Below are positions 17,734 to 23,830 of a stretch of 64,000 nt of DNA, piece after piece. Below the pieces are notes generated by a model. That model was given only the letters and a program-made list of their open reading frames with translations, was not told where the DNA came from and searched no databases. The stretch's first letter is position 1; the number at the start of each line of letters is the position of its first letter. Position numbers and translations under genes: made by a program. Origin of the DNA: Kondoa malvinella (taxonomy: Eukaryota > Basidiomycota > Agaricostilbomycetes > Agaricostilbales > Kondoaceae); NCBI GenBank assembly GCA_039545315.1, contig BCIM01000001.1, positions 1,955,783 through 2,019,782 on the forward strand, read 5' to 3'.

Positions 17734-19225
<1,492 letters not shown>

Positions 19226-19535
19226 AAATGGTGCAAGAAGCGGAACATTGATCAGTCAGCCGAAGCCACTCGCTCACTATGTACAAAGTTATGTCCCGTT
19301 TCGAAAAAGGACATCATGTCACGTGATTGGTCCGAAATTCGAGAATCTGGTCAAGACAACCGCTTGAGACCTTCCTCTGCCCCCGGGCGGCACAAAGTAC
19401 TCACTAGAGACGAATGGTATCTGTAGAATATATGAGCAAAGCTCGCAATGCCATCTCAGTACATACCCGACGAGTCAAATAGAGTGGACAAAGAAAGAAA
19501 AAGAAGGGCATCTACAGTCAGCTCATCTTGATGGA
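19226..19535. other. 3' flank of the Fanzor candidate / promoter of thioredoxin reductase
   Basis: 310 bp between two genes on the minus strand. It must serve as 3' UTR of the nuclease gene and 5' region of the reductase. In known Fanzor/TnpB loci the guide (omega) RNA is usually transcribed from the 3' end of the nuclease gene, so this is where one would be expected. I could not identify a specific fold, and no terminal inverted repeat was recognised by eye. Confidence 0.3.
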
Positions 19536-22500
19536 TCAAGGGTTGAAAGCACGCACATATGATGGTGCGATTTCATACACCGTCGTCTGCAGTAATAGCC
19601 TGAGACGTGTAAAGATCTGTAGTGCATGATCAGCTTCTGCATGGATGATGGCAAACCAAGACATGCCCTCTTTGCGGTCGAACGGGTGACAACCCCAGAC
19701 CAGCCAATGCCAAGCAACAAAGGCGATATTGCAAGCAGCCGCCAGATCGCGGTTGTACTTCTTTCGACACTTTTCACATTGTTGCACTCGCTGACAAATG
19801 TTTCCAGTAATGTTGTATTTCGGTTTGTGCAACCTAACGGCCGGACAGTGAGACAATAGCAACGACTCTACTAGCACACTCACCTCGACCGAATCCAATT
19901 ATCCTGCACTACCTCATACTGCTGCCAATCCTCACCCGGTGCTCGAATACAATCCTGATCCGGACAAGCTTGAGAAGTGAAGCCCTCCTTGACAAGCATC
20001 GTTCGTGCAGCTAAGCGTTGCCAACCGATCTCTGCTATAATCGCACGCAAGATCGCGTTGCGGAAGTCTGCTGTGTGTACTTTGATTCCTTGGGCGGGTT
20101 TGCAATCAGCGCCGAGAGCAAAGATGACTTTCAGAATCGGCTGAGTGTGCTGAGAGAAGGTGCCAGTTGTATGCGCGAAGCGTCCAGCACGAGCACCACA
20201 TGCTTCCAAGACCTGATCTACAATTCGGTCCATCTGTTCTTGCCTGCGCTTTCGAAGTAGCCAAGCCTAGCTTCGGACCTTGAATGACGTGCGATGCAAG
20301 AGCTGTAAGATGTTGAGCGCTGCTGCAGTCTTGCCATCGTTTCTTTGTCTGCTGTACTTCAGAAGCCAGTCGAGTGGACTAGGAAATTGCCTTCGAAGCT
20401 CAGCGACATTCCGACTATGAAGTTTGATTGTTTGCTGGAGACTCTTCGGAGATAGAAGAATGCGGCGAGAGACAATTTTCGTTAAATGTGCGCATGTACC
20501 AAGCATGGGTGAACGTATGACCTGCATCGTTGCCGATAATGACAGTCTTCTCAAGTGCCTTGGCGACATCAACATTGGCTTGAGGGAGCTTTTGATCAGG
20601 TTGCGGATATTCGTGGACACGCAGCACATGATCTCCCTGCTTGATAATTAGCTTGAGCATTGGCCTTCTCGCCGCAGGTTGGCCTTCTGAGGCTTCTACG
20701 CTCGAGAGTCGTCTTTTCGTTCGGAGAGGTGGATTCAGATAAGGCAGCGTTGAGGTAGATGCTTGACTAGGCAATGTAGCAGCTTCAGATAGGGCTGGCG
20801 GATTCGAAGGATCAGGCGGATCAACGACGTTCTAGATGAGATCAGCAACAGACAAAAGGAGGACGGAGATACACTCACGATAGGAGCATGAGCAGGAGGA
20901 TCTAGTACCCAATCTCGCAACCCTTGCACCGTTGTTTCGTTCAACATCTTGATGCTTCTAGGTAGCCCGTCCTTGGTAGCTTCTTGCTTGATGAACGGAA
21001 CGTGGGCATAGCTTCTAGTCATTTGATCCATCCGGCACGACTCATTGTTGGAGTAAGTTGGAAAGATGACTTCTGACGTTGGATTTGAAGCGGAAGAATC
21101 TGTCGCATATTCGTAGTATTGTGCTTTCCAGCTGAGCTGATCCATTCTCGCAGGCCTGAGTTGGGGAGCAGTGCCGGTGACGAGATCTGCGCATACATGA
21201 AGAAATTGATCTTTGATGGATAGATTGTCTGGATTGGATGCCTTGCCGCGACAGTTCATGATCAGCGTGACGCCATCGAATTGAATTGAGCCAATGGGTA
21301 GGAGATAGGTTGGTAGCTTGTGAGTGCTGAAGACGTGATCGACCATACGGAGATTGAGACCACTCAGATTGGCCAAAGAGAAGGTGTTCTCACCACACAT
21401 GTGCTGGGCGAGAACTTGAGCATATTTCCCAGCTTCGGCCAAGAAAGACGGGTTGATCTGAAGGCTGAAGGCTGTGTCTATTCCAGAAGCAGCTTGAAGG
21501 AGACTTCGTCCAACGGTGACATGGGATCTTCGAGTCGCTGATCTTTTCTCGTTATGCAGAAAGCATGGTAGCTTGAGCCTTGTTATAGGATTCTTGGGAA
21601 ACGGTGAGTTCGTCGCAACCTAGAACAAGAACAGCGGCAAGGACTCCTATCTCGATCGATATAGTGCTGTCCGAACTGGTGACAGTTGTGTTGGCCGCAT
21701 CGCCAAGTTGCCCGATTCGGACGATGAGCATGTTGCGGATGGAGGAACCAGTCAGATCCGGGGCGCATACGAAATGAGGTAGTTGATTAAAATGGCTCCA
21801 GGCTGCTACGATACAGTCGAATGTAGATGCCGTCATTTCGACCCTGTTGAAGGACATCGGTAGGCAGCAACCGGTTGAGCACAAGACTTTTTCGACGTGA
21901 GTAGATGAATGAGACGAATAGCTGGACGCTTTAGAAAGACGCGGATCCAGCCGTTGGATAAAGAGGCAGGGGATCGAGGATAGATGTATTGACGACGATC
22001 GTTTTGAGCTTCTTCGCTGCTTTGCTCGGCTTGACGCTTTTCTTCCTCTTGGTACCCATAGTAGCCTCCTCGTCGTCGCTTGGTTCCGAAGATCTCTCAG
22101 CCTTATCATGATCATCCAGATGCTTCCCATCTATATCCACTTCCGCTCTATCAGCATCTTCTGACAGAGCGCCGACATGATCCACAACCTTCGACAGCTC
22201 CTCTTGACTACCTCCAACGATCACCCTCATCGTACTCCTCGTCGTGAAACCCTTCTAAACCATCTTCATGCTGTTGTGCTCTGCCTTCTTGTGAGCTTGG
22301 CTCCTTCTCTGCTGCATCCTCAATGAGAAGTTGCTTCATCAGGTCAGCTTGCTCGAGCAGTTGGACATTAGGTTCTTCATCCCGGTCTGGATCCTGGCTA
22401 ACGGATAACATTGATCTTGTTGCGCTCGAGGATTACTGAGACCTGAGCAGGCTCTAGCCCATTTCGCGTTGTTGCATTCGAGGAGGAAGGAGGTGCTGCG

Positions 22501-22598
22501 ACATTGTCGGCTGCTCGTCATGTCATCTTATAGAGCAGCTTCTTACCGCCCGCCCCTCGCTTGGGTGGCTGATTACAAAGTTGGCCGAGACGGAACAT
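19536..22598 (-). CDS. Fanzor-type nuclease candidate (eukaryotic TnpB/OMEGA relative)
   Basis: The C-terminal half reads like a RuvC-type TnpB/Fanzor nuclease. RuvC-I is KTVIIGNDAGHTF (Asp codon 20526-20528). After a helical insert comes ILKVIFALGADCKP. Then LVKEGFTSQACPDQDC has the glutamate at the rearranged Fanzor position (codon 19985-19987), the TSxxC signature and the first Cys pair. The second Cys pair is in CQRVQQCEKCRKKY, running into NRDLAAACNI (RuvC-III Asp codon 19746-19748). Fanzors are RNA-guided DNA endonucleases spread by transposons. The N-terminal part is disordered and acidic (DEEYDEEDADRAE) with a lysine-rich NLS-like block (GTKRKKSVKPSKAAKK), then an unfamiliar middle region. 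About ten exons join in frame with canonical introns, for example a 64-nt one joining EEYDE to EDADRAE. The ATG at 22596-22598 (MFRLGQLCNQ) is the likely start. All three acidic positions are present, so it may be active. Family call rests on motif order only. Confidence 0.72.
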
Positions 22599-23830
22599 GG
22601 CTTGATAGATCAGGAAGATCATCATCATCTGAATCTTCTTCTTCTTCCTCACTATCGGAATCTACAGTGGCTTTGGTAGCAGGTTGTAGGGAAGCGGTAA
22701 AGTATGAAGAGATGGATTCTTGTACATAACGTTGAGTGATCGTTTGTCATCTCCTCCTGGCCTTGAACCCTTCAGTATCAATATTACATACAGAACAGGG
22801 TGCAGCCAAGATCAGTACACACGCAAACAGTCAAGCGCTTCGACATCTACGAATGCCATCTCATCTTCGCCTTCCACGTTGATCTCCACAAAGGCCAAAC
22901 TCCTGAGAAGCGTCACTTGCGATTCAGAAGAAATAGGTGCTATCTCCCTGGCTAAGTCGTGCAGAGCTGCTACTGAGATTGGTGGATGCGCTATACTGTT
23001 TCTTGCATGTCGGACATTACGTTTCAGGTCGAGTAGCCGTTGACGCAGGCTTGTCTGGGCTTCCGTTAGATTCAGCTTGAGCTTCTTTGCGATAGCGTTT
23101 TGGCTAGATAACAGCCGAGGCGCTACGGTCACGCCGTCAGTATTAGATTGGGCAATTACTATGTAGCAAATACTTACTGCCGTCGATTCCGGCCGCTTTC
23201 AATTGCTGGTGCTCAGAAGGCTTGAGGCAATCCCAGATCTGCGCGTCGAGAGCTTGCTACGCATTAGTCATGGCGCTAGGAGGCGCAACAAGCTTTACCT
23301 TTCCGCGCCCTTGTGAGCAATTCCGCCCGATTCAAAAGCTGCTCCCTCGCATCTCTCTCCTGTTCTTTAAGATCCCGCTCCCGATCTCTCTGATCCCGCT
23401 GTTGATCTTTAAGATCCCGCTGCCGATCTTTAATGCTCAACTTCTCTATCTCCGAAACCAACCATTCGTGTGAGGTCTGTGTCACAAGTGGAGATGATTC
23501 GACAGTATCTAGCTGACTCTATGCACACGCACGGTTTTACGCTCATAGACAGCTTGCGCCGGCGGATCGGTACTTGAATCAAGCGAAAGAAACGTATAGT
23601 TTCCTGCTTCTGCACTAATTGGTTCGTAAAGCAGCAATGGCTTCAAGTCCGAAAGATCCAAAGGCCCAGCAGTGCGAGGTTTCGAGGCAGACTATGCATC
23701 GTCGCTGGATGAAACCCATGTGCTTCGTTGCCGTATGAGTGCTGCTTGCAGAGTGCGGTCTGCCCGTACCGAATAGGCTGGTAGCGAAGAGGTTCGACGA
23801 CGTTCGCTCGTGGTATGTGAGGGTACTATT
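22573..23830 (-). CDS. unknown charged helical protein (5' end unresolved)
   Basis: Several exons in series look coding. From the 5' side they are: a Ser/Arg exon near 23770-23830; ASKPRTAGPLDLSDLKPLLLY with following residues (23530-23690); a long charged helix of KDRQRD/DQRDRERD-type repeats (23370-23450); AQIWDCLKPSEHQQLKAAGIDG (23190-23260); and a helical exon with LKLNLTEAQTSLRQRLL (22815-23130). The 3' exon is strongly acidic (VDSDSEEEEEDSDDDD) and stops at 22573-22575, 26 nt inside the start of the Fanzor gene. I do not recognise the family. No ATG could be placed with confidence. It may join the cysteine-containing exons at 23986-24440 into a single gene. Confidence 0.4.

Follow-up and report, generated by a model that had tools for sequence, protein, structure and literature searches.

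A stretch of 64,000 nucleotides from the basidiomycete Kondoa malvinella (contig BCIM01000001.1; this whole stretch is hereafter the window) raises the question of whether the fungus carries a working Fanzor gene there, Fanzors being eukaryotic homologues of TnpB (PMC3627910, PMC10432273, PMC10711439, PMC11423790). The candidate lies on the minus strand at 19536-22598, where an earlier note, made from the letters alone, had placed a Fanzor-type gene split by about ten introns, starting at 22598 and bearing an acidic N-terminal extension. We searched the genome, 19.09 Mb in 20 contigs, for related loci. On the evidence set out below we consider it fairly probable that the window holds an inactivated copy, lacking its 5' part, of a fungal family present in few copies, the intact members of which combine an XPG/FEN1-like N-terminus with a Fanzor-type RuvC/zinc-ribbon C-terminus.

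Six-frame searches of this genome, which give lower bounds, recovered at least six copies of the Fanzor-like family: the window copy (on contig C1), its closest relative at C2:974k (L018), and loci at C2:507k (L014), C3:1105k (L015), C12:578k (L016) and C2:338k (L017). Exon-joined models without internal stops were obtained for the last four, and these encode proteins of 1757 (L014), 1743 (L015), 1680 (L016) and 1664 (L017) amino acids in five to six exons. Their 18 introns are all GT-AG and measure 46-55 bp. Subfamily A includes L014 and L015, and among the intact models L016 and L017 form subfamily B. Intron phases, taken from exon lengths, run 1, 0, 0, 2 at matching places in all four models, with one additional intron in subfamily A. 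The N-termini are only 20-23% identical between the subfamilies and 33% within A, and the reading frames and intron places have therefore been kept over a long time; that the phases are common to both subfamilies despite this low identity argues for one transcription unit. The predicted protein, as modelled from sequence, would thus comprise about 1,700 residues, with an XPG/FEN1-like domain, a long linker and middle region (presumed REC/WED), and a RuvC/zinc-ribbon end. For the middle region, Pfam returned nothing at expectation values (E) up to 0.5 in two of the four paralogs (L015 and L017). As for the genome itself, the Zn_clus family has 25 matching places in it at E <= 0.001 and had no match in any of 14 control genomes; this fits a fungal source, as do introns near 50 bp.

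The C-terminal half carries a TnpB/Fanzor-like signature. As shown by the OrfB_Zn_ribbon profile (PF07282), which the earlier note had named as a check on its call, all five members searched (the four intact models and L018) are related to the TnpB zinc-ribbon family, being listed at E up to 10 with a best value of 1.7e-6. The match to L014 (E 2.7e-6, 27.9 bits) exceeds the cut-off of 26.3 bits, and single exons fall below it. The guided_TnpB profile NF040570 was likewise listed for all five at E up to 10 (best 1.5e-4); on L014 it reached E 0.055 and 12.7 bits, far below its 100-bit cut-off. A published motif for Fanzor and TnpB proteins, D-X(125,275)-[TS]-[TS]-X-X-C4 zinc finger-X(5,50)-RD (PMC3627910), is found in each of the four intact models, with gaps of 168, 171, 189 and 195 residues between D and TS and a spacer of five before NRD. 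In Fanzors and their bacterial kin the RuvC glutamate is repositioned to lie six residues before the zinc finger (PMC10711439). Consistent with this, the four intact models, L018 and the window copy all show this six-residue spacing between the glutamate and the first zinc cysteine, within E-[GD]-[FW]-[TS]-S-Q-x-C. From this glutamate to the last aspartate there are 65 residues in L014 and L015, the same distance as in SpuFz1 (E541-D606; PMC10432273, PMC11423790), and 56 and 55 in L016 and L017, respectively. Together the profiles and the rearranged-glutamate rule (PMC10711439) back the earlier note in calling this a Fanzor-type RuvC and zinc-ribbon region.

We compared the family with the known systems. 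It resembles Fanzors (Fz1/Fz2) in its RuvC D-E-D triad, in the glutamate just before the zinc ribbon, in the four ribbon cysteines and the RD motif, and in its PF07282 similarity. Unlike Fanzors, the intact members possess an XPG-like N-terminus, and their 1664-1757 residues lie outside the 600-700 given for most Fanzor1 proteins (PMC11423790), so that the length expected of Fanzor1 is not found. The zinc-ribbon and RuvC-III end is also shared with TnpB/Cas12f (NF040570, PF07282), from which the family differs in glutamate position, size, host and extra domain. We refer to the family, on the strength of its sequence, as Fanzor-type, without assignment to Fanzor1 or Fanzor2. A bacterial TnpB as a recent source was considered and set aside: the family has introns, and no such protein was among the protein-search matches, which did not take in a scan of the prokaryote genome collection with the nuclease.

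The N-terminal half has the appearance of a 5' nuclease. Each of the four intact models begins with MG, and seven acidic positions follow, arranged as D, D, E-x-[DE], D-x-D and a GxD turn (patterns written by eye), an order that we take to be that of the FEN1 active site. The first and second aspartates are 69-70 residues apart in every model, and five of the seven acidic positions are invariant columns in the alignment of the N-termini (A1). When a profile of the four N-termini was compared by hhalign with one built from five XPG-type genes of the same genome, the two aligned with a probability of 79.4, an E of 1.5e-5 and a score of 45.2. Shuffling the columns 200 times gave a top score of 21.4, and reversing the profile gave 16.3. 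Windows of the proteins that lie entirely beyond the N-terminus scored 12.0-15.8, and one that overlaps the second half of the N-terminus scored 39.3. The N-termini of subfamilies A and B matched each other with a probability of 97.2% (E 3.3e-11, score 87.3), with scores of at most 24.8 in 100 shuffles. The similarity to XPG, FEN1, EXO1 and GEN1 thus comprises the MG N-terminus, the seven acidic positions, the GxD..G.G turn and the profile match; the differences are that it lies below Pfam detection, contains long inserts, is joined to a RuvC nuclease and lies outside the five places matched by XPG_I. We conclude from these sequence features that an XPG-like reading of the N-terminus is likely.

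The window copy retains only the C-terminal part of such a gene. RuvC-I, the TSQAC site with its glutamate, two cysteine pairs and RuvC-III were found on the minus strand in the order and at the places that the earlier note had read by eye, and the three acidic residues that it had counted as present could each be located: the aspartate of IIGNDAGHTF at 20528-20526, a column invariant in the family alignment (A2), the rearranged glutamate of VKEGFTSQAC at 19987-19985, and the RuvC-III aspartate of NRD at 19748-19746. The cysteines lie at 19966, 19951, 19778 and 19769. Upstream of the RuvC core is an exon remnant at 20879-21571 (minus; open frame 20735-21619) homologous to residues 1105-1316 of L015; by tblastn, 21571-20903 matches L015 at 35% identity (E 7e-33) and L014 at 31% (E 3e-28). 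It is followed by an intron of 47 bp (20832-20878, minus; GTGAGT..TAG) with counterparts of 49 bp in L014 and 50 bp in L015, in the matching linker, and then by an exon piece with the remaining linker and RuvC-I (20471-20831, minus). Near 20470 the frame shifts. The next piece (19884-20470, minus) holds the remainder of RuvC, the glutamate and the TSQAC/first cysteine pair, and is interrupted by a TAG at 20269-20267 where the paralog frames stay open. A second intron (19834-19883, minus; 50 bp, GTGAGT..TAG) is identical in L018 and occupies the position of the last intron in the four intact models. The last exon (19536-19833, minus) contains the second cysteine pair, NRD, WHWLVWGCHPFDRKEG and the tail to the stop codon; alone, it scores 21.5 bits with PF07282 (E 2.7e-4), under the curated cut-off of 26.3.

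We further compared the window copy with L018, which is 5'-truncated and has its frame shifted just upstream of RuvC-I; both of these close copies are therefore relics. The two have about 1.5 kb in common at 94% DNA identity (window 20767-19273), a stretch that takes in the second intron, whose 50 bp are the same in both, and also 263 bp of 3' flank. The tail of the last exon is 85% identical, as against 96-98% in the other parts. Within the RuvC frame synonymous changes numbered 14.5 (161.8 sites) and non-synonymous changes 11.5 (561.2 sites), so that change per site is about four times higher at synonymous positions. By segment, the ratio of non-synonymous to synonymous change (dN/dS) was 0.24, 0.28 and 0.08 in the three segments, and 1.04 in a wrong frame of the last one. 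Given these low ratios, the RuvC part of the window copy was probably selected as a protein until recently, with the reservation that the numbers are small. By its sequence, the window locus is a 5'-truncated, broken copy: family homology begins only at 21571, equivalent to about residue 1105 of 1743 in L015.

How far, then, could the locus be a functional Fanzor gene of about ten introns with a novel acidic extension at its N-terminus, along the lines of the earlier note? The motifs are present in order, and two introns (20878-20832 and 19883-19834) do have paralog counterparts, the other breaks in the homologous stretch being the frameshift and the TAG. The figure of about ten is best explained by a reading that ran on through the damage in the copy and into the flanking DNA. 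Upstream of 21571 the coding strand matched the paralog proteins at best at E 0.14 (0.93 with default statistics), no better than antisense matches. The proposed start at 22598 was misplaced, since this codon sits within the 21 bp that end an RRP5-like relic (22713-22578, minus), which stands outside the nuclease system and is 73% identical over 142 aligned positions to C17:57936-58076. The acidic, lysine-rich open frames at about 21931-22432 (minus), which supplied the supposed extension, matched neither the family nor the RRP5 locus: no match to the four paralog models was better than E 0.14, and no other DNA match in the genome was found at E <= 0.001. Their membership in the gene is accordingly unsupported, though they may belong to it in a very decayed form, and the stretch 22432-21931 stays unexplained, as either flanking DNA or a family linker decayed past recognition. 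The in-frame TAG at 20269-20267 where the paralogs stay open, the frameshift near 20470, the 5' truncation and a start codon inside the RRP5-like relic lead us to reject a ten-intron gene starting at 22598, and we give a working gene of this kind almost no credence. The suggestion in the earlier note that the unfamiliar region might be a fusion fared better. It seems right for the intact paralogs, by way of the XPG/FEN1-like domain, but that domain is absent from the window copy.

Two further explanations concern the intact paralogs. The family might consist of diverged Fanzors with a very large N-terminal region of their own, in which the XPG resemblance arose by convergence or chance; Fanzor N-terminal halves are variable (PMC3627910), Pfam does not see an XPG domain and subfamily B alone gives no XPG signal. 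The hhalign score of 45.2, where 200 shuffles stayed at or below 21.4, is hard to reconcile with chance, as are the MG start and acidic positions in all four models with the first two aspartates always 69-70 residues apart, and we regard this explanation as unlikely. Alternatively, the XPG-like and RuvC-like parts could be two neighbouring genes that are kept together and make separate proteins, the fusion having been deduced by splice inference from DNA alone. Against this, order and orientation are identical at four loci, the exons join in frame with phases common to both subfamilies, and the N-terminus of L015, used as a genome query, picked out none but fusion loci, of which three out of four came up at E up to 1. 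We hold two separate genes to be very improbable.

Several observations nevertheless count against a fusion of an XPG-like domain with a Fanzor-type nuclease. At the N-terminal end, Pfam listed no XPG family (XPG_N or XPG_I) for any of the four N-termini at E up to 10, and XPG_I matched five places in the genome, none of them at the fusion loci. Subfamily A alone scored 33.7 against the XPG profile and subfamily B alone 14.7, that is, undetected, and when a global alignment with the XPG genes was forced the probability fell to 11.8. The XPG profile was made of five sequences pieced together and trimmed by eye, and scans with FEN1 and XPG pieces for enlarging it found no relatives. The first aspartate and the second acid of ExD/E were also placed by eye, the first aspartate being unaligned in A1. 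Splice sites were picked by eye in genomic DNA with the paralogs as guide, and the uniformity of the introns is partly by construction. At the C-terminal end, the RuvC-I motif DPG is near exclusive to Fanzors (PMC10711439) and is present in only two of the six copies (L015 and L017); the window copy, L014 and L018 have DAG, and L016 has DMG. In none of the six copies does the first zinc knuckle follow the CxxC of the Fanzor search expression (PMC10711439), all having Cx4C instead, with the four ribbon cysteines present as the published motif requires (PMC3627910). An AlphaFold2 model of the RuvC part (alignment A5, without the RuvC-III exon) was poor, with a predicted local distance difference test (pLDDT) of 43.5 and a predicted template modelling score (pTM) of 0.32, and was left unused. 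PDB sequence searches with either end gave nothing significant, LaTranC at E 0.64 being no more than a hint. The 3' flank of the relic, where a guide RNA was looked for, folded no better than shuffled sequence, a result that does not settle RNA guidance, and no inverted repeats bracket the intact genes within flanks of about 1 kb, no search having been aimed at transposase genes. Finally, only two relatives from outside this genome were among the matches listed in the protein searches.

The copies, the lesions at the window, the four frames that join across GT-AG introns, the C-terminal homology to TnpB and Fanzor and the conserved acids at both ends can all be read in the sequence, and they allow us to hypothesise how a protein combining XPG/FEN1-like and Fanzor-type halves might act. 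By analogy with Fanzors, the RuvC end would cut DNA under the guidance of an RNA that its own transcript supplies at the 3' end. The XPG-like end would then trim the 5' strand displaced or left as a flap at the cut, and such trimming would favour either repair from another copy, that is homing, or removal of the target. Being broken and devoid of the XPG half, the window copy is not expected to make such a protein. One proposal, to which we give even chances, is that the intact members form a fungal family of double nucleases on a single chain, each joining a Fanzor-type RNA-guided RuvC effector to an active 5' flap nuclease of the XPG/FEN1 type and serving in homing or in a domesticated host function. 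If it holds, a single protein would link guided cutting with the removal of flaps, and the known range of Fanzor sizes and domains would be widened. A natural union of RNA-guided and flap nucleases would show how eukaryotes couple guided cutting to end processing, and would suggest designs for editors. It would also place Fanzors at low copy number in a compact fungal genome, with reading frames kept over a long time, as would be expected of a domesticated gene and not of a spreading transposon.

The two outside relatives are short. P0001 (262 amino acids) is 97% identical to the window copy, and P0002 (255 amino acids) is a distinct member, 48-57% identical to the four subfamily A copies and not found as such in this genome. 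They come from contigs of at most 1909 and 3074 bases, respectively, in which the N-terminus is outside view. A search with alignment A4 scored 8000 candidates, among which these were the sole matches, and none of 1570 long protein candidates scored at E <= 1. Viral relatives were also considered; alignment A2, scanned against viral contigs, gave 22 matches to its pattern, none of them a relative. As to the literature, a search pairing Fanzor with basidiomyc- found nothing, most subscription papers being outside its scope. No Fanzor-XPG fusion, that pairing of a Fanzor-type with a DNA-repair-type nuclease, appeared in the titles and abstract beginnings among the matches listed, again with subscription papers mostly outside, so that novelty is unproven. 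Of two papers that contain both Fanzor and flap endonuclease, a preprint on viral contigs (PMC11071296) brings them into one phrase, naming 'Fanzor flap endonuclease homologs (Fendons)' in passing in a passage that carries no statement of a fusion.

The flanks of the relics hold traces of past events. The 3' non-coding flank of the window copy (19261-19535, minus) is common with C2:974k as far as 19273, and its end recurs alone at C4:100833-100920 (L048), which is 94% identical over 88 bp to window 19347-19261. Nothing matched at this C4 locus in the nuclease searches, and the solo piece is comparable to the 'ghost' elements reported for SpuFz1 (PMC10432273). Two truncated copies together with the solo 88-bp 3' piece suggest past duplication, and possibly past mobility, of the family. 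Weak inverted pairs bracket the truncated copies, one of 19 nucleotides and 79% identity at the window (18872-18890/21745-21763) and one of 16 nucleotides and 88% at L018. Rfam gave no match in the window at gathering scores, and a Fungi_U3 search matched nowhere, controls included, and was uninformative. The C4 locus with the solo piece also carries a KAVKDDVKAVKDD repeat.

On the upstream side, a stray RRP5-like gene fragment (22578-22713, minus) adjoins the truncated nuclease copy. At its C17 counterpart an RRP5 S1 domain scores above the cut-off and an RRP5 OB domain just below it, and the frame with the matching stretch itself reaches only E 0.005. Open frames at 22812-23518 (minus) adjoin the relic in turn and include a charged, heptad-like repeat, IKDRQRDLKDQQRD..., at 23276-23518; nearer to the RRP5-like relic, the same frames contain a weak HEPN-like match (PF18736, E 0.012), below its cut-off. 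On the downstream side, the repeated 3' flank of the relic stops just upstream of the frames at 17963-19255 (minus), a gene that, from its motifs, presumably resembles thioredoxin reductase.

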